IMG/VR virus record: IMGVR_UViG_3300037136_000082
Location: 1 to 33,638 of that record
Direction: 5' to 3' (one strand)
DNA length: 33,638 nucleotides
DNA from: a virus
Numbering within the stretch: position 1 is the first letter of the stretch; each line of letters opens with the position of its first letter. A model generated the notes under the pieces. It did no database searches and was not told the DNA's origin. It saw nothing but the letters and a program-made list of their open reading frames with translations. This document shows positions 538-10,177 of this stretch, one piece after another. A program made the position numbers and the translations under genes.

Positions 538-719
538 CACAGTTCGAGATCGATCAGCTACGGCTAAAACAGGTCCTGGCGCTGCCCTTGGGCGCAACCG
601 GCTGTTGCGCCCCTTCATTCCGGCCTTGGTCGGCTCGAAGGCCACGGAGAAAATACAAAGCCGCCGAGCGTGGCTTGCGGTCGATTGGACCGTGCGCGTC
701 TTCACGCCTAAGTGTCTAG
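534..719 (+). pseudogene. 5' part of a disrupted phage gene (frameshift plus insertion)
   Basis: Translation from ATG 534 gives MTQFEIDQLRLKQVLALPLG and then turns into unconvincing sequence. From 602 the frame two bases over reads LLRPFIPALVGSKATEKIQ and then RRAWLAVDWTVRVFTPKCL, which is clearly protein-like. One lost base near 600-602 would join the two parts as ...LPLGATG-LLRPFIPAL.... The second frame runs up to base 719, where the inserted element begins. Removing the element and one 8-bp repeat continues it in frame into the 3' part at 1128. From memory this resembles an alanine- and tryptophan-rich phage protein family of unknown function. As given, only an out-of-frame product could be made, so I call it a pseudogene. 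Confidence 0.75.
712..719. repeat. left target-site duplication GTGTCTAG
   Basis: This 8-bp direct repeat lies immediately before the left terminal inverted repeat. It is identical to 1120-1127, which directly follows the right one. The position at both outer ends of a perfect inverted repeat is the signature of a transposition event. Confidence 0.85.
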
Positions 720-735
720 CATGCTTATCCGGTTA
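720..735 (+). repeat. left terminal inverted repeat of the cassette
   Basis: This perfect 16-bp repeat, CATGCTTATCCGGTTA, is the reverse complement of 1104-1119. A further GCCCA block a few bases in matches at both ends, so the original repeat was probably about 28 bp. Confidence 0.85.
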
Positions 736-779
736 AGGCCCAATAGCTTTACAGACAATCAAAACCCAAAGGATCAGCC

Positions 780-1106
780 ATGAGAGAAAACGAGTGCTAC
801 GTCGCAAAGGACTCGCGCGGTCCAGTGCGCAGGCTGGTGGACAGTTTCTTCCCCGGCCAGTACCTGCCTATTCCAGACGATCTGGAGGGCTTTGCGCCGT
901 CCTACATGGTCACCGAGACGATTGCCTTCCTTGACTGGAAGGACCGCCTGCGGACGTTGGTAAGCGGCAAGGTGAAGGTCCGAGTGCATACCAAGACCGA
1001 TGTCATTGTGGGCAAGAGCCTATCGACGGCTGCGGTCAGCGTGTGCTCACCATTCTATCGGCCGGGGGCAGAGTTCGCCCACAGCGCAGGCGGTAATGGG
1101 CGATAA
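780..1106 (+). CDS. phage-type small protein carried by the cassette (108 aa)
   Basis: The gene has an ATG at 780 with AAAGGA six bases upstream, and its TAA stop (1104-1106) forms the first three bases of the right inverted repeat. It therefore fills the cassette almost exactly. The protein is soluble, with no membrane segment or catalytic motif that I can name. The central section, reading GFAPSYMVTETIAFLDWKDR then LRTLVSGKVKVRVHTKTD followed by SAVSV-like residues, matches from memory a family of small uncharacterised proteins in tailed phages of Pseudomonadota. The function is unknown. A phage gene riding between transposon ends suggests the element picked it up from a phage and moves among phage genomes. 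Its own ribosome-binding site would allow expression wherever transcription passes through. Confidence 0.7.
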   Translation: MRENECYVAKDSRGPVRRLVDSFFPGQYLPIPDDLEGFAPSYMVTETIAFLDWKDRLRTLVSGKVKVRVHTKTDVIVGKSLSTAAVSVCSPFYRPGAEFAHSAGGNGR

Positions 1107-1119
1107 CCGGATAAGCATG
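1104..1119 (-). repeat. right terminal inverted repeat of the cassette
   Basis: This perfect 16-bp inverted partner of 720-735 contains the stop codon of the passenger gene. The right copy of the 8-bp duplication follows without a gap. Confidence 0.85.
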
Positions 1120-1127
1120 GTGTCTAG
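1120..1127. repeat. right target-site duplication GTGTCTAG
   Basis: This is the exact copy of 712-719, directly outside the right inverted repeat. Confidence 0.85.
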
Positions 1128-1312
1128 ATCTCGTGCCAGCATTGAAGGATCACGCTGATGGCCTACGCGCTCACGAAGAGATCGCTGACCTTGCAGGTCT
1201 GCTTGCCGCTCAACCGAAGTTGAACGCAGCGCGTTCGGCTTCGGCCGCCGCCGGGGCCGCCGCGTGGGCCGCCGCGTGGGCCGCCGCCTCTAAAAAACTG
1301 CAGCCAACCGTT
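1128..1312 (+). pseudogene. 3' part of the disrupted Ala/Trp-rich phage gene
   Basis: After excision of the element, base 719 joins base 1128 and the frame reads ...FTPKCL-DLVPALKDHADGLRAHEEIADLAG.... It continues into an alanine-tryptophan repeat (AAAWAAAWAAA) and KKLQPTVEW. From memory, members of this family have a conserved N-terminal RRAW-x-AxDW region, a low-complexity AAW/AAR stretch, then an LxPTV motif and about 15-20 further residues. Here the reading after LQPTVE no longer looks like that tail, so the 3' end also seems lost where this block meets the oppositely oriented late genes. The end at 1312 is approximate. There is no start with a ribosome-binding site, so the piece is probably silent. 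Confidence 0.65.
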
Positions 1313-1402
1313 GAGTGGTGCATTCGTGCGGCAGTGCTTCCAGGTGCCCTCCTCCCCCTCGGTGATCTTCAGGAACTGCGGGTCAAGGTCCGTCAGGCGC
1401 AT
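1163..1402 (-). CDS. truncated small phage protein (79 aa as read)
   Basis: The ATG at 1402 lies 20 nt inside the end of the glycosyltransferase-sulfotransferase gene, with GGAA a few bases upstream, so it could be the last gene of the late unit. The N-terminus, MRLTDLDPQFLKI, resembles the start of small phage proteins that usually continue into a Cys-containing, roughly 100-residue domain. Here the sequence after about residue 37 (LNGWLQFF) becomes RGG repeats. These are simply the antisense reading of the Ala/Trp repeat in the plus-strand pseudogene. I infer that a deletion or recombination joined two convergent genes and cut both. The N-terminal third is the only credible part, and expression is uncertain. 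Confidence 0.4.
   Translation of the reverse strand: MRLTDLDPQFLKITEGEEGTWKHCRTNAPLNGWLQFFRGGGPRGGPRGGPGGGRSRTRCVQLRLSGKQTCKVSDLFVSA
1249..1284. repeat. 12-bp tandem repeat, three units
   Basis: Two identical units of CGCGTGGGCCGC (1261-1272 and 1273-1284) follow a diverged unit at 1249-1260 (two mismatches). On the plus strand they encode the Ala-Ala-Trp-Ala stretch of the pseudogene. Such GC-rich codon repeats expand and shrink easily and may have helped form the gene junction here. Confidence 0.8.
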
Positions 1403-2726
1403 GGAGCGTTCCGTTTGATTTCGGGTACAGGGCCGCCGGCACCGGCTTGCCCAAAAAGGTACATAAACGTAACCAATCCGTGTCGGTCTCGCAGTTGAGC
1501 TCGATCAGGTCATGCGGCCGCTCGGTGAAGTAGTGCCGCACCGCCTCGTTGTGGGCGCGGTAGCGGCGCAGGAACACCCCGGCATCAAAGCTCTTGCGGC
1601 CGTAGAGGGCCTTGTGGGCCATGTGGGTGAAGGGGTCGGTGTCCCAGCCGGCGCGGTACTTGTTGGTGTGCGGGTTCCAGTGCGCCTGCACTGATGACAG
1701 CCACCCCTCCTCGCTCCTCGTGGTCAGGATGAAGCGCGAGCCGGGGTAGGCGACATCCAGCTCCTTGAAGAGCAGCGGGAAGGGCAGGTCGCTGAAGGCG
1801 TAGCCGCGGTCCACCGCGCTCGAGCGCCCCTCGGCGCGCATCTCAAGCCAGATGTTCTTCGCCCAGTGCGCGTTCTTCCAGTGCGCGCTCTCCACGCCCA
1901 ACGACTGCAGGGCGTGGTGCAGGCTCGTGGTGCCGGTCTTGTGCATGCCGATGCCGAAGATCCGGGTCGGGACGGGCTCGATGCGGATGAACTCATCCCC
2001 CGGCCAGCGCAGCACCTCGGCGCACCCGATCGCCCCCGCGTTGACCACCGTGGTCTCGCACTCCTCGGTCTGGCGCTTGTGCTCCCAATAGGGGGTGTCC
2101 TTGGCGTGCGGGTACTCCTTGAAGCGCAGCTTATCGTTGTGGCGCACGGCGCCTAAGTACTGCGGGTCGATCTCGGCCCCCACGTAGCCGCAGCGGGTGA
2201 GGCGCAGGTTAAAGTCCCGGTCATCCGGGCCCCAGTCCCCGAAGCGCTCATCGTACCCGCCGACTTTCAAGAACGCGGCGGCGGTGACTGCAATGCGGCC
2301 GCTGATCCCCCGGTCGAGCACTCCCTTTTCCATTTTTGCCCACAAGAAGGCGCCGCCCTCCAGGTGCGCGAACTGCGAGGCGATGTAGGTGGCGAATCCC
2401 GGGTTGGTGAAGTTGTCGGCGTCCAGGTTTACCAGCAGGTCCGCGCCCTCGCGGATCGCGCACCGGTGGGCCAGGTTCTTCGCGTGCGCCATGCGAAAGG
2501 GCCCCTCGCACGGGTTGCAGTAGACGACCAGGCGGCCGCTTTGCAGGTCCTCTTTGTGGAACTCCTGGAGGTACCCCTGCAGGTCCTCGCAGCCACCGTA
2601 GTCCACCAGGACGAACACCGCGTTCGGGTAGTCGGCGTTGTCTTTCAGGTTTTGGGGGAGGGTCTGGGATAAGTGCGCGGTGCGGCCCTTGCAGGTGATG
2701 CAGAAGGCGATGCGGGGGAGGCTCAT
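1383..2726 (-). CDS. glycosyltransferase (GT-A) - sulfotransferase fusion
   Basis: The protein is 447 aa with two domains. Residues 1-245 are a GT-A type glycosyltransferase. They include a metal- and nucleotide-sugar-binding DAD at 102-104 in LVNLDADNF, and a GGYDERFGDWGPDDRDF segment (156-172) typical of the acceptor/base region. Residues 254-447 are a sulfotransferase-like domain. It has a phosphosulfate-binding loop GMHKTGTTSL (260-269) and a second cofactor segment FILTTRSEEGW (332-342). By family, the first half would transfer a sugar from a nucleotide donor and the second would transfer sulfate from PAPS, perhaps to that sugar. No signal peptide or membrane segment is seen, so it should act in the cytoplasm. 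It is the distal complete gene of the late unit. The substrate could be a virion glycan or host surface polysaccharide. Confidence 0.85.
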   Translation of the reverse strand: MSLPRIAFCITCKGRTAHLSQTLPQNLKDNADYPNAVFVLVDYGGCEDLQGYLQEFHKEDLQSGRLVVYCNPCEGPFRMAHAKNLAHRCAIREGADLLVNLDADNFTNPGFATYIASQFAHLEGGAFLWAKMEKGVLDRGISGRIAVTAAAFLKVGGYDERFGDWGPDDRDFNLRLTRCGYVGAEIDPQYLGAVRHNDKLRFKEYPHAKDTPYWEHKRQTEECETTVVNAGAIGCAEVLRWPGDEFIRIEPVPTRIFGIGMHKTGTTSLHHALQSLGVESAHWKNAHWAKNIWLEMRAEGRSSAVDRGYAFSDLPFPLLFKELDVAYPGSRFILTTRSEEGWLSSVQAHWNPHTNKYRAGWDTDPFTHMAHKALYGRKSFDAGVFLRRYRAHNEAVRHYFTERPHDLIELNCETDTDWLRLCTFLGKPVPAALYPKSNGTLHAPDGP

Positions 2727-5215: not shown

Positions 5216-5478
5216 GTGGGGTTGGCCTTCTCAGTTGCTTTGCCTTCTGCGATACCCAGGTGGCGCGCCAGGATCTCGTTCCTTTCTGACAGGCCATTGG
5301 TGGTCTTGCGAACCTGCTCGAGCTTCACGGCGCCGGCATCGATCTTGTGCGAGTTACGTTGCGAAATCCGCATCCCGCAAAACGCAACCGCGACCGCCGT
5401 CACCGAGCCTACGGCTGCCAGGCACGCAGCAATCGACGTAAGCAGCGGCGCGAGCTGTGCGACCTCTGTGATAGTCAT
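5212..5478 (-). CDS. single-helix membrane protein (88 aa)
   Basis: The protein has one N-terminal membrane segment (about residues 8-36, ending CGMRIS). A charged, probably coiled-coil tail follows: NSHKIDAGAVKLEQVRKTTNGLSERNEIL. The KTTNGL/K-TN-x-M type motif after a helix is common in small phage membrane proteins found beside tail fibres and lysis genes. The topology would suit an inner-membrane spanin (Rz-like) or an accessory to the holin. The ATG at 5478 follows GAGGGGG with good spacing. Its stop overlaps the lysozyme-like gene's GTG start, so the two are co-translated. Confidence 0.6.
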   Translation of the reverse strand: MTITEVAQLAPLLTSIAACLAAVGSVTAVAVAFCGMRISQRNSHKIDAGAVKLEQVRKTTNGLSERNEILARHLGIAEGKATEKANPT

Positions 5479-5487
5479 GGTGCCCCC

Positions 5488-7737
5488 TCAATTAAGCAGC
5501 GGATAGGCGAGCATACCTCCCAGCGCGCCCTTGACGGCCGAGGTGGTCCACCCGGTGGGGTTGCCGCCCTTGTTGAAGGCCAGGACGCCCGCGGTGGTCA
5601 TCTGGGCGCTGGCATCCACACCCGCCCCGTTGTCCTCGGCGAACACCCAGTTATAGCGGCCCGAGGCCGAGGGCAGGATGAAGGCCGGGGCGCCGGTGAT
5701 GGTGAGGCTGTTCGCGTTGCTCGTGGCGGTGAGGTTCGGGATGCGCACGAAGATCGTGCCGCCGTCCATCTCCCAGTACACCGTCGCCGTGGGCGCGGTG
5801 GTGCACCCGGTGAGCGTCCCGGTGTAGTTGCCCTGGACGTTCATGTCGAGGTAGGAGGGCCCGCCGTGGATGACCGAGAGCGTGACGATCGTGATGCCGG
5901 CCGAGGACTGCGCGCCTGACAGCCCGCCGCTCCAGGACACCGCGGTCGAGCCTTGCGTGAAGGTCGCCTGGCGGGTCTCCCCGTCCGGGAACTGCACGAG
6001 CCAGGTGCCTGAACCCGACACGCCGCCCTTCCAGGCCGCGGTGAGCGTCGCCGAGGTCGCCCCGTTCCCGGGGTTGCCGGTGAAGGTCGCGGTGCTCTGC
6101 GGGATCATCTGCCCGGAGCCTGCCAGGTCATTGCCGCGCCACAGGAGGGAGACCGTGTCGGTGAAGGTGGACGGGTGGGTCAAGGAGACGATGATCGGGC
6201 TGCCGCCCTGGATCCAGTGATTACCGACGAAGGTCACCCCGTTGCAGTGGGTGAAGAAGATCACCGACACCCCGCTCGTGGCCAGGAAGCTGCAGCCCTC
6301 GACCGTCGTGCTCTGGGCGCCCGTCTCCCAGATGTGGGAGACCGCGTTCACCTCGAACCAGCAGTCCCGGATGGAGGTGCCTTGCGTGAAGGCCCCGGAG
6401 CCGTCCGCCTCGAGCACGATCGCCCCGATGCCGTTCGCGGTGGTGCTTTGCAGGGTGCAGGCGAACACCCGCACCATGAGGCAGCCCTTGATCCGCAAGG
6501 AGTTGCTGTTCGTGAAGAACTCGCAGCGGTTGAAGATCACCTCATTGGAGGAGGAGCTCGTGGTCCAGGAGTCGAGCACGCACCCGGCGCTGTTCGCACT
6601 CGCGGTGGAGAGGTTGAACTGGCAGCTCCAAAACTCCGAGTACTGGGCGTAGAAGCCGTAGAAGGCGGCGATCGCCCCATAATTGAATTGGCAGTTCCAG
6701 AACTTCGCGGAGGCCCCGCTGAAGTACACCGCGTAGTTGACATCCCCGGTTGAGACGATCGGCACGAACTTGCGGGCGGTGAAGTTGCAGTTCTTGAAGA
6801 CCACATTCGTGCCTGAGTAGGCGCCGGCCTGGCCCCCTCCCGGAGCGACGCCTGTGTTGTTGGCGAAGATGACGCACGACTGGGTAGGCGTGCTCGAGAA
6901 GCACCGCAGGGTGGATCCTTGGCCGTTGATGAAGACCTGCGCATTGCTCGGCCCTGAGATGTCGAGATAAAAGGCGTAGTCCCCGTTCGGCGGGAACATC
7001 AGCGTGCCGCCCGACACCTTCGCCTGGTTGTAGACCGCCTGGATGATCGAGGTGTTGTCGACCCCGTTAGGAAGGATGCCGTAGCGCTGCAGGTCGTAGA
7101 CCGGGGTGTTGGCGAAGGCGAGGCTTGAGATCGCGATCGCGCTCAAAGTCTCCGCGACGTTCCTGGGCCAGATGAGGCCGCCGATCAGCGCGGCGGACAC
7201 CGGCTGCACCGAGACCACCTGCCAGTTGGTGCCGTCGTACTCGAAACGGTAGATGCCGGTCGCTAGGATGTTGCCGGCGACCAGGGCGCTGCCCCCTGAC
7301 TGCACCAGGTTCTTCGCCCCCGTGCCGTTGAGGTTGAACGTGGAGGCGCCGGTGCAACTGTTGCCGGCTGAGATCTCGACCTTAAGTCCCGCGTACAGCT
7401 GCGCGGACAGGCGCTGGTCGTTGACCACGTAGGCGTTCGCGGTGCCGCTCTCGGCCATCGTGACGAAGCCGGTCGGGTCGATCATCTGGACCGGGGATCG
7501 GACCTTATAGGTCGCGCTGTTGTAGTTGTAGGTGAGGATGTACGCCCCGTCGGGCACGTAGAAGCTCACCTGGCCCGTGGCATCGGCCGTGACGGTGGAG
7601 CTCGGGATCGGGTTCGCGGTGCCGTTGGTGCTGTAGATCGCGGCAGCTCCGCCTCCCGGGTAGGCGGTCACCACCACCTGGGCGCCGGGCAGCGCGTTGC
7701 CTGAAATGTCGGCCAGGGTGTCGAAAAATTGCAGCAT
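5488..7737 (-). CDS. tailspike with right-handed beta-helix
   Basis: The protein is 749 aa. The N-terminal ~100 residues (MLQFFDTLADISGNALPGAQVVVTAYPGG, VSFYVPDGAYILTYNYNSATYKVRSPVQM) look like a virion-anchoring domain. From about residue 210 there is VYDLQRYGILPNGVDNTSIIQAVYNQ, the usual entry motif of pectate-lyase-like tailspikes. It is followed by many short rungs with N-C, F-N-C and F-W-C patterns (VFKNCNFTA, FWNCQFN, IFNRCEFF), which form a beta-helix. A later beta-sandwich-type segment contains GTWLVQFPDGETRQATFT, and the C-terminus is probably a trimerisation region. It should bind, and perhaps cleave, a host surface polysaccharide. Catalytic acids cannot be assigned from sequence alone. 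Confidence 0.85.
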   Translation of the reverse strand: MLQFFDTLADISGNALPGAQVVVTAYPGGGAAAIYSTNGTANPIPSSTVTADATGQVSFYVPDGAYILTYNYNSATYKVRSPVQMIDPTGFVTMAESGTANAYVVNDQRLSAQLYAGLKVEISAGNSCTGASTFNLNGTGAKNLVQSGGSALVAGNILATGIYRFEYDGTNWQVVSVQPVSAALIGGLIWPRNVAETLSAIAISSLAFANTPVYDLQRYGILPNGVDNTSIIQAVYNQAKVSGGTLMFPPNGDYAFYLDISGPSNAQVFINGQGSTLRCFSSTPTQSCVIFANNTGVAPGGGQAGAYSGTNVVFKNCNFTARKFVPIVSTGDVNYAVYFSGASAKFWNCQFNYGAIAAFYGFYAQYSEFWSCQFNLSTASANSAGCVLDSWTTSSSSNEVIFNRCEFFTNSNSLRIKGCLMVRVFACTLQSTTANGIGAIVLEADGSGAFTQGTSIRDCWFEVNAVSHIWETGAQSTTVEGCSFLATSGVSVIFFTHCNGVTFVGNHWIQGGSPIIVSLTHPSTFTDTVSLLWRGNDLAGSGQMIPQSTATFTGNPGNGATSATLTAAWKGGVSGSGTWLVQFPDGETRQATFTQGSTAVSWSGGLSGAQSSAGITIVTLSVIHGGPSYLDMNVQGNYTGTLTGCTTAPTATVYWEMDGGTIFVRIPNLTATSNANSLTITGAPAFILPSASGRYNWVFAEDNGAGVDASAQMTTAGVLAFNKGGNPTGWTTSAVKGALGGMLAYPLLN

Positions 7738-7741
7738 GGGG

Positions 7742-8848
7742 CTACCCGATCCTGGTGATGATGAGGGAGGAGCCGGAGTTCATCTGGATAGCATTCGCGC
7801 TGGATGAGTTCTGCGCGAACTGCACCGTCAGCACTCCGGCCAGGGTGGTCTGGATGATGAAGTCCATGTTCACCACATCAGGATTCGTGGAGCCGGCCGC
7901 CGCCCCGGTGAGTGCCGAGGGGCCGTTCGCCGCGACCGCGTAACTGGCCGCCGCGGTGCCGTTTGAACTGCTCACGCCCCCGCCCGCCCCGTCCCCTGCG
8001 ATCGAGCCTGCGTAGTTCAGGCCGAACTTCCAGCCCTGACCCGTCCCGCCGATGCCCAGGAGCTGCAGGCGCACCTGCACCAGGTAGAAGGCCCCGGCGG
8101 CCAGGTTCGCCGTGAGCACCGTGTCGTTCTGCAGCGTGGTCTGGGAGGCGACCTGCTGCGGGCTCACCTTCATGATGATCTGCGGCACCCCCAGCGGGTA
8201 GTACCGAAGCCACCGACCCTGGGAGGCGGTGGCGACGCTGTTGGGCTTGAGCACCGTGCGGCCATCGTCGGTCGCGGTGCTGGTCGGTGACCAGTAGAAG
8301 AAGCCCCCCAGGCCATCGTTGATCGCAGAGCCGCCCTGCAGCTCGATGTTCAAGGTCTGCCCGGTCACAAGGGCGGGGGCGTTCGCCGCCCGCACGTCCG
8401 CGATCACGTCATAGGACTTGACCGCATTGGCGACCAGGTCCGCCCCTGCGACGGGGCCTGAGCCTGAGACGTTGATGTTGCTCGCCGAGGCCAGGAGCGA
8501 CTGCAGGGAGTTGGTCGCGTTGGTCAGATCGTTGAGCGCCGGGAGGTTGTCCAGGTACACCAGCTGGTTCGCCCCGGTGCTGTCGGTGACCACCAGCTTG
8601 ATGACGGTGCCGCCTGGCACCCAGAACTCCACCGGTGCGCCGGCGGCGCTCGCGGGCCTGGCGGCGCTGCTGGCGCTCATCGGGTTCGCGTTCGCGACGA
8701 TCCCTGTGCTGTCGGTGTAGGTGGTGGCCGGGGTGTTCACCGAGCCGGCCACGTAGGTGTTGATCAGCGCGCCGGGTGCGAGCAGCCCCAGGTTCGTGAA
8801 GTACTGGATCAGGAGTGAGACCGGGGAGAGGTAGTAGGTTGTCGCCAT
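7742..8848 (-). CDS. tail fibre or tailspike-adaptor protein
   Basis: The protein is 368 aa. The N-terminus (LSPVSLLIQYFTNLGLLAPGALINTYVAGSVNTPATTYTD) and the following VEFWVPGGTVIKLVVTDS resemble the head-binding or particle-attachment region of P22-like tail fibres. A middle part has the form LNIELQGGSAINDGLGGFFYW. The C-terminal 130 residues are Ser/Thr/Gly/Ala-rich beta structure with no enzymatic motif. It precedes the tailspike gene by 4 nt in the transcript. The likely job is to attach the tailspike to the tail hub or to serve as a second receptor-binding protein. It starts at ATG 8848 after a weak ribosome-binding site, three bases past the ATP-grasp stop. Confidence 0.75.
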   Translation of the reverse strand: MATTYYLSPVSLLIQYFTNLGLLAPGALINTYVAGSVNTPATTYTDSTGIVANANPMSASSAARPASAAGAPVEFWVPGGTVIKLVVTDSTGANQLVYLDNLPALNDLTNATNSLQSLLASASNINVSGSGPVAGADLVANAVKSYDVIADVRAANAPALVTGQTLNIELQGGSAINDGLGGFFYWSPTSTATDDGRTVLKPNSVATASQGRWLRYYPLGVPQIIMKVSPQQVASQTTLQNDTVLTANLAAGAFYLVQVRLQLLGIGGTGQGWKFGLNYAGSIAGDGAGGGVSSSNGTAAASYAVAANGPSALTGAAAGSTNPDVVNMDFIIQTTLAGVLTVQFAQNSSSANAIQMNSGSSLIITRIG

Positions 8849-8851
8849 GGG

Positions 8852-10177
8852 TCACCCGTACTTAAATTCGGTCGCAAAGCCGTGCGCCTGGAGCTTCGGC
8901 AGTTCCTCCTCCAGCTTCTCCCCGATGTCATCCCGGTACATCATGTTCGGGATCTCGATCTCCTTCACCACCCCGTACATGCGCTTGCAGGCCTGGGCCA
9001 CCGTTTTACCCGTTCCGGTCACCACGCACACGTAGTCCCCGCAGGTCGCCCACATCCGCTTCTCGATGACCGCCCCGTCCTTCATGGCCGGCAGCTTCGC
9101 CATCTTCACGCTCTGCGGGTGGACGAATTTGCGGTTGCCCTGGGAGGGACCGTAGATCGGGATGTCCAAGACTTCGGCTTTTGTAGCCTTTGAGTAGGGG
9201 TAGTCGGGCTGGGCTAAAACGACCCCGGCAGCCACCGAGTAGTCCACCTCGAGGGAATCGCGCCCCTCGCACGCGTCGAGCATCCACTCGGCAGGATCGC
9301 CCTTGTGGGTGGCGAGCATGAGGTTGAAGGCGGGCCACCCCCAACGGCACGTAAACTCCAGCGGCCACGGCTGCCCGTCCTCATCGATGATGCAGTTCAC
9401 GTCGACATCGCCCAGGTGCCCCATCTCGATGAGCGCGGCCTCCAGCGGCTCGAGCACCATCTGGTAGAGCAGGCTCTCCTGGCAGTACTTCTGCACCGTG
9501 CCCGCCTCCCCGCAGTTGGCCCCAACATTTCCCGAGAGCAGCTTCTTGTGCTCGAAGTTCTCGTTGGGTGCTGAAATGAAGCCATCACGGCCCATCCAGC
9601 GGCTAACTCCCAGCTCTATGCCGGGAATGAAGGTCTGCAGCATGACCTTGCCCTTAGGGTTCATCCCCAGCTTTCCCCACCGCTGCAGCCGGGCGACCAT
9701 GTCGGCGGCTGACTTGCCCACGTAGGAGAGGCTCTTGTCCTCCTCGCTCCCAAGTGTCTTGAACACGTAGCGCTCCGGCTTCTTCCGGACGTGCTCCTCG
9801 GCCTCCTTCAGCGACTTGAAGGTCTCGTAGGCGGGCACCTCAATGCCGCACTTCTTGAAGAGCTTCATGCCCTTCTCGCGCTCGATCTCCAGGTCTGAGG
9901 AGGCCTTGGTCGGGGCGAACACGGCCACCCCTCGCTTGCGGATGGCGTCCAGCTTCGGGATGAACTCATCGTTCCCCGTGGTCACCACCAGGTCCGCCCA
10001 CCCCGTCGCGGAGGGTACCCAGTTCTTCACGTGCTCCAGACCCCGCATCCCCTCCCCGATCGCCTGGTTGTTCTCGGCGCGCAGGTAGTAGCGCACCTCG
10101 TGGCCCGCCTTGATACACGCCATCGCGAAGGCAAGCCCACACCCCGCATCCTCGTGTTCGATGAGCAGCACCTTCAC
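8852..10177 (-). CDS. ATP-grasp ligase, PurD-like
   Basis: The protein is 441 aa with a GTG start in a GTGA overlap with the ejection-protein gene. The N-terminus MKVLLIEHEDAGCGLAFAMACIKAGHEV is a Rossmann-like pre-ATP-grasp domain. The layout recalls phosphoribosylamine-glycine ligase: VFAPTKASSDLEIEREKGMKLF, then YVFKT (ATP-binding lysine), QTFIPGIELGVS, and a metal-binding strand PWPLEFTCRWGWP. In PurD-type enzymes that last motif reads closer to E-x-N-x-R-x-G-D. Here Thr and Cys replace the central residues, so the substrate may differ. The family joins a carboxylate to an amine through an acyl phosphate. Placed between ejection and tail-fibre genes, a purine-synthesis role is doubtful. 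A peptide- or amino-acid-ligase role is possible. Confidence 0.8.
   Translation of the reverse strand: MKVLLIEHEDAGCGLAFAMACIKAGHEVRYYLRAENNQAIGEGMRGLEHVKNWVPSATGWADLVVTTGNDEFIPKLDAIRKRGVAVFAPTKASSDLEIEREKGMKLFKKCGIEVPAYETFKSLKEAEEHVRKKPERYVFKTLGSEEDKSLSYVGKSAADMVARLQRWGKLGMNPKGKVMLQTFIPGIELGVSRWMGRDGFISAPNENFEHKKLLSGNVGANCGEAGTVQKYCQESLLYQMVLEPLEAALIEMGHLGDVDVNCIIDEDGQPWPLEFTCRWGWPAFNLMLATHKGDPAEWMLDACEGRDSLEVDYSVAAGVVLAQPDYPYSKATKAEVLDIPIYGPSQGNRKFVHPQSVKMAKLPAMKDGAVIEKRMWATCGDYVCVVTGTGKTVAQACKRMYGVVKEIEIPNMMYRDDIGEKLEEELPKLQAHGFATEFKYG

Follow-up and report, generated by a model that had tools for sequence, protein, structure and literature searches.

The window analysed here, a 33,638-nucleotide stretch of DNA comprising positions 1 to 33,638 of IMG/VR virus record IMGVR_UViG_3300037136_000082, is from a phage: it is an IMG/VR entry and has genes for the large terminase subunit and for head-closure and major head proteins. 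A phage gene near its start is split by a 400-bp insert (the element), which has inverted ends, is flanked by an exact 8-bp duplication and carries one complete gene, the passenger (Table 1). The GC content of the insert is 0.57 vs 0.63-0.66 in the surroundings. The sequences of the two ends are CATGCTTATCCGGTTAAGGCCCAATA and CATGCTTATCCGGTTATCGCCCATTA. By our own rough arithmetic, the chance of finding a perfect 16-mer partner within 6 kb together with an exact abutting 8-bp repeat, taken over all window positions, is ~1e-6.

Table 1. Features at and around the insertion (window coordinates)
Feature	Position	Strand	Comment
5' part of interrupted phage gene	533-719	+	open in frame 2; joins 1128 once the insert is removed
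Target-site duplication (TSD), left copy GTGTCTAG	712-719		exact 8-bp repeat
Insert (element)	720-1119		400 bp
Left terminal inverted repeat	720-745	+	26 nt, 88% complementary to the right end, outer 16 nt perfect; same as family end CATGCTTATCCGGTTNNNRCMCA
Passenger gene, 108 aa	780-1106	+	RBS-like AAAGGA upstream; ORF is 81% of the element
Right terminal inverted repeat	1094-1119	-	gives the passenger its last codons and stop (TAA, 1104-1106)
TSD, right copy GTGTCTAG	1120-1127		exact 8-bp repeat
3' part of interrupted phage gene	1128-1498	+	includes Ala/Trp-rich repeat region
12-bp tandem repeat	1238-1285		encodes the Ala/Trp-rich tail of the interrupted gene
Fusion-like protein adjoining interrupted gene	1386-2726	-	Sulfotransfer_4 (5.2e-31) and glycosyltransferase signatures
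ATP-grasp protein	8855-10177	-	phosphoribosylglycinamide synthetase domains; unusual amid phage structural genes

When position 719 is joined to 1128, a single open frame (frame 2, ...RRAWLAVDWTVRVFTPKCLDLVPALKDHADGL...) is restored that is open from about 533 and that the insert closes with stops. Homologues of the interrupted gene are encoded by 44 IMG/VR viral contigs, 26 of them ungapped across the junction, and one relative (L212) spans the window junction at the DNA level with 67% identity. Since homologues read through the junction and the frame is rejoined, the insertion is real. The interrupted frame is distinct from the ATG-initiated ORF at 519-719 (66 aa), which lies in another frame and ends at a TAG inside the duplication. 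The protein encoded by the interrupted gene is common among phages and has a tail rich in Ala and Trp; at least one homologue from another phage (L220) has a similar tail. No DNA-level relatives of the window locus were found among isolated phages.

The window passenger found no match in Pfam or PHROGs, and its AlphaFold2 model, made from 7 sequences, was poor (mean pLDDT 60). Its relatives are ordinary phage genes outside elements, full-length homologues among them. For example, a relative in IMGVR_UViG_3300014501_000008 is 59-60% identical over 72 aa, and one in Acetobacter phage phiAX1 (49% over 65 aa) lies a few genes upstream of the portal. The dN/dS of the passenger against its nearest relative is ~0.23. 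These relatives outside elements indicate that the window element has in all likelihood captured a native phage gene. The first passenger relative picked up in viral contigs (L095), a metallophosphoesterase-like protein, was rejected as a chance match. An IS1595-clade transposase was found neither in the window element nor anywhere in the record, which is probably incomplete, so that its absence says little.

The first-pass annotation, made from the sequence alone, had claimed a 400-bp element with 16-bp perfect inverted ends, an exact 8-bp duplication, one complete 108-aa gene whose stop lies in the right end, no transposase, and a reading frame rejoined upon removal of the insert. All of these held; only the imperfect extent of the ends, given as about 28 bp, was measured as 26 bp at 88%.

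Cassettes with the same ends in viral contigs

The exact 16-bp end occurs in 92 viral-contig stretches against about 20 expected (our own estimate), and many of these stretches show a partner end in inverted orientation together with an 8-bp duplication. The ends CATGCTTATCCGGTTNNNRCMCA define a large family in IMG/VR: relaxed-end and two-end searches yielded 104 distinct elements, 134-2253 bp long, that have inverted ends and an 8-bp TSD, which is exact in 96 and has one mismatch in the other eight. One entry in this collection, of 908 bp, is made up of two elements that abut, and a minority of the entries are from bacterial contigs. Same-strand end pairs served as a control and none of 43 had a matching 8-mer. 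The 124 distinct target sites follow the palindrome GWWYRWWC. Only 66% of junctions fall within open frames, compared with 86% of random positions, and passengers tend to be co-oriented with the flanking ORFs (75:39, p=0.001).

Most elements consist of one ORF occupying 70-95% of the length. An RBS and a start codon lie at positions 30-46 of many 5' ends, and stops are provided by right ends. A few short members (134-241 bp) have no ORF of 50 aa and would qualify as MITEs; another member (L193) retains the C-terminus of the transposase. CACA-type ends commonly have an inner block, CTAnATnTTG, at position 29-30 or, one helical turn deeper, at 41. We interpret this block, by inference only, as an inner transposase-binding site. 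The inner end sequences of the window element are without this second conserved block, and its match to any particular transposase is therefore limited to the outer 23 bp.

Several records contain more than one cassette. In L180 (2899-3806), two cassettes of 396 and 504 bp abut, with the 8-mer CGTTGATC in three copies, one cassette being inserted exactly at the duplication of the other. A 194-kb viral contig of jumbo-phage size (L040) has three short cassettes (862-1142, 5310-5676 and 8551-8837) with diverged ends, e.g. GACAACCAC. Three cassettes lie inside 3.2 kb in G012, the record of L127 (50348-53471), and three are also found in G014; these might be cassette arrays or hot spots.

The outer 15-23 bp of the window ends are those of elements with an IS1595 transposase, and they resemble the ends of ISAcr1. 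Elements of about 1.4-2.6 kb with these ends carry an intact IS1595-family transposase (NF033547 IS1595, 8.7e-56) and a passenger; the 11 transposases that were aligned are intact and at least 64% identical. An alignment-based search placed the transposase at 79 viral loci, 51 of which have the ends and an 8-bp TSD. These 51 autonomous phage elements have a median length of 1.8 kb, all but two exceeding 1.25 kb, and the additional sequence is usually an ORF beside the transposase. In a quick tree, the compact, ISAcr1-like bacterial copies fall among the phage ones. No close relative of the transposase was found in isolated phages, hence no cultured phage example was obtained.

The cargo is diverse. 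Hits among the 82 passengers scanned are distributed over 56 PHROG families and include D12 and C5 DNA methyltransferases, Mom, PAPS reductase, NADAR, MazG, ASCH, DHH phosphoesterase and TnpB; other elements carry a single passenger of unknown type. Three passenger families (C5 methylase, PAPS-reductase-like and phrog_12600) occur on both transposase-bearing and passenger-only elements. Passenger pairs mostly have a dN/dS of 0.02-0.41, i.e., purifying selection acts on most. The youngest pair, L098 and L127, differs by one synonymous and five non-synonymous changes, too few to show purifying selection. In one phage (L120, 1253-2408) an element with IS1595-type ends and an 8-bp duplication has TnpB (OrfB_IS605, Cas12f1-like TNB) as its only passenger, that is, TnpB is carried there by a foreign transposon end pair.

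Phage residence and movement

The relaxed end was found in at least 119 viral stretches vs 27 in 257 Gb of prokaryote genomes, and at least two of the 27 prokaryote contigs are equal in size to viral contigs already found (L187/L023 and L195/L066). Among 397 genomes from the order of one carrier, the end was matched in that carrier only. Ten flanking proteins were tested from seven bacterial loci, of which six clearly carry an element, and all ten proteins match PHROG families. Family members are also present in the genomes of cultured isolates, Rhodoplanes elegans and Bradyrhizobium viridifuturi. Judging from the bacterial carriers, the hosts are likely Alphaproteobacteria, other Proteobacteria and Acidobacteria. 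The viral contigs are metagenomic, and their phage status rests on IMG/VR and on phage genes, terminase or others, which about half of the tested records have: terminase was detected by two models in 22 of 49 viral cassette records, the window being added by another model, and a tyrosine integrase in 11 of the 49.

Movement of relatives of the window element is shown. The elements of L098 and L127 are 98% identical and have unrelated flanks and duplications; L034 and L036 have an element in common at 92% at unrelated sites. Furthermore, the uninterrupted DNA-level site of the L073 element is carried by L101 (81% identity). An IS1595-type transposase is also contained in nine of the 49 cassette records and is of the close clade in six of the nine.

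The window element is thus very likely a non-autonomous IS1595-type passenger cassette (a mobile insertion cassette, MIC) of a phage-resident clade, most likely trans-mobilised; trans-mobilisation is an inference, as no transposition was observed. For this element it is shown that: i) its ends match those of transposase-coding IS1595 elements; ii) an 8-bp duplication was made; iii) a phage gene was interrupted; and iv) a phage-type gene that has its own start region is carried. The presence of a transposase between the same ends is shown at the level of the family. Trans-mobilisation is supported because near-identical passenger-only elements are found at unrelated sites, because some phage records hold passenger-only and transposase-bearing elements together, and because passenger families are common to both kinds of element. 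By inference only, the window ends are recognised in trans and the passenger is expressed and of benefit to the phage; the route of gene capture is likewise inferred.

In the proposed mechanism, an IS1595 transposase would be supplied in trans by a second phage or prophage residing in the cell or, at an earlier time, by the phage itself. It would recognise the ends and move the cassette by cut-and-paste or copy-out, after which the passenger may be translated from phage read-through or from a nearby promoter. Such movement would distribute small accessory genes across unrelated phages. Passenger-only elements probably arose from transposase-plus-passenger elements via transposase loss or via a gene swap between the two ends; because passenger families are shared, transposase loss is the best-supported origin.

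A bolder reading, for and against which we would argue with equal conviction, is that phages host a gene-cassette exchange system of their own. A clade derived from IS1595 and found almost exclusively in phages and prophages would capture single phage accessory genes between standard ends, which often supply the RBS, start and stop, and would move them between unrelated phages mostly without a transposase. If this is true, many of the captured genes are for DNA modification, usable against host restriction, and the system would have a role for phages comparable to that of integron cassettes for bacteria.

Alternative explanations

The rival that survives best, although unlikely, is a decayed remnant: an internally deleted IS1595 copy, now immobile, that retained an ORF by chance, the gene having no role. 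In its favor, the window record has no transposase, and internal deletion does happen, as in the members without a 50-aa ORF and the one with only a transposase C-terminus. Against it, the passenger has full-length homologues outside elements and the low dN/dS given above, the window ends and TSD are perfect, and one ORF occupies most of the element across the family.

A moron, i.e., an independently transcribed gene acquired via illegitimate recombination with the inverted ends being merely promoter- or terminator-like borders, is very unlikely. A single phage-type gene of slightly lower GC inserted between phage genes would fit. However, the ends are identical across unrelated phages and passengers and have an 8-bp TSD alongside, transposases are located between the same ends, and the insert splits a gene. 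An assembly or binning artefact is suggested only by the window being a single metagenomic contig and is all but excluded, having already been refuted for the family by 104 distinct elements of the same architecture from independent samples and by members in genomes of cultured isolates.

The trans-mobilised passenger cassette remains the preferred reading, and the other claims of the first-pass annotation can be judged against it. That the insert is a passenger cassette with a phage-type gene held, its relatives being ordinary phage genes; trans-mobilised spread is supported and remains an inference; and 'little described' is fair within the literature searched. The IS family, which had been left to be identified, is IS1595, from the transposases between the same ends, and a search for the paired ends in phage and bacterial genomes gave the 104 elements, with the ends nearly absent from bacterial genomes. 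Two observations had been named as refuting the insertion. The first, a lack of uninterrupted relatives, is not the case, as the 26 homologues that are ungapped across the junction show. The second, the same 400 bp without inverted ends, was not met either: passenger relatives lacking the ends are ordinary phage genes at other loci and not this segment.

Relation to known elements

According to PMC8136500, which cites Leclercq and Cordaux (2011), phages rarely contain insertion sequences. The family also bears on the unsolved question of how unrelated phages exchange small accessory genes. A single end sequence recovers more than 100 passenger cassettes, nearly all from phage contigs, together with a transposase, a target motif and examples of recent movement. 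The family offers a mechanism for phage mosaicism that is concrete and can be tested, and searching with the ends allows accessory and anti-restriction genes of phages to be mined.

Besides the moron and artefact readings, MITE and integron cassette were considered and rejected for the window element. A MITE has no coding capacity, whereas the window element carries a conserved gene; an integron cassette has an attC site and lacks a target duplication, whereas the window element has a pair of inverted IS ends flanked by an 8-bp TSD (no attC model was applied). It resembles a phage moron, since both add a small accessory gene to a phage genome, but differs in the defined transposon ends, the TSD and the family-wide mobility. 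Of the IS1595 criteria, homologous ends and an 8-bp TSD are met, and an internal transposase is not, though it is met by relatives. The nearest named IS is ISAcr1 (Acidiphilium), whose transposase is 68% identical to that of L068 and which has similar ends (CTTGCCTATCCGGTTGACTCCCAT / CTTGCCTATCCGGTTGTTACCCAC) and an 8-bp TSD. However, ISAcr1 is 1080 bp long and codes for the transposase only, as do the other plasmid copies measured (1.08-1.15 kb), whereas phage members have a median of 1.8 kb with a passenger or, like the window element, are passenger-only.

Transporter IS (tIS), passenger-carrying members of the IS1595 family (Siguier et al. 2009, cited in PMC3129680), have a transposase and an unrelated passenger between IS1595 ends, as do most of the 51 autonomous phage elements; the window element differs in that it lost, or never had, the transposase. 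To our knowledge, no tIS has been described outside bacteria. The MIC concept and trans mobilisation of passenger cassettes are likewise established (cited in PMC3129680 and PMC3281130), and the window element meets the description of a MIC such as MIC231 of Bacillus cereus, a passenger between IS ends without a transposase. MIC231 uses the ends of IS231, of the IS4 family. It is bacterial, whereas the window family has IS1595-type ends, phage carriers and many different phage genes. Neither the end sequence nor IS1595 phage cassettes were described in the literature searched, which did not include preprints or the primary 2009 IS1595 paper. Thus, IS1595 passengers and MICs are known, and what is likely new, within that literature, is their phage-resident radiation with diverse phage genes.
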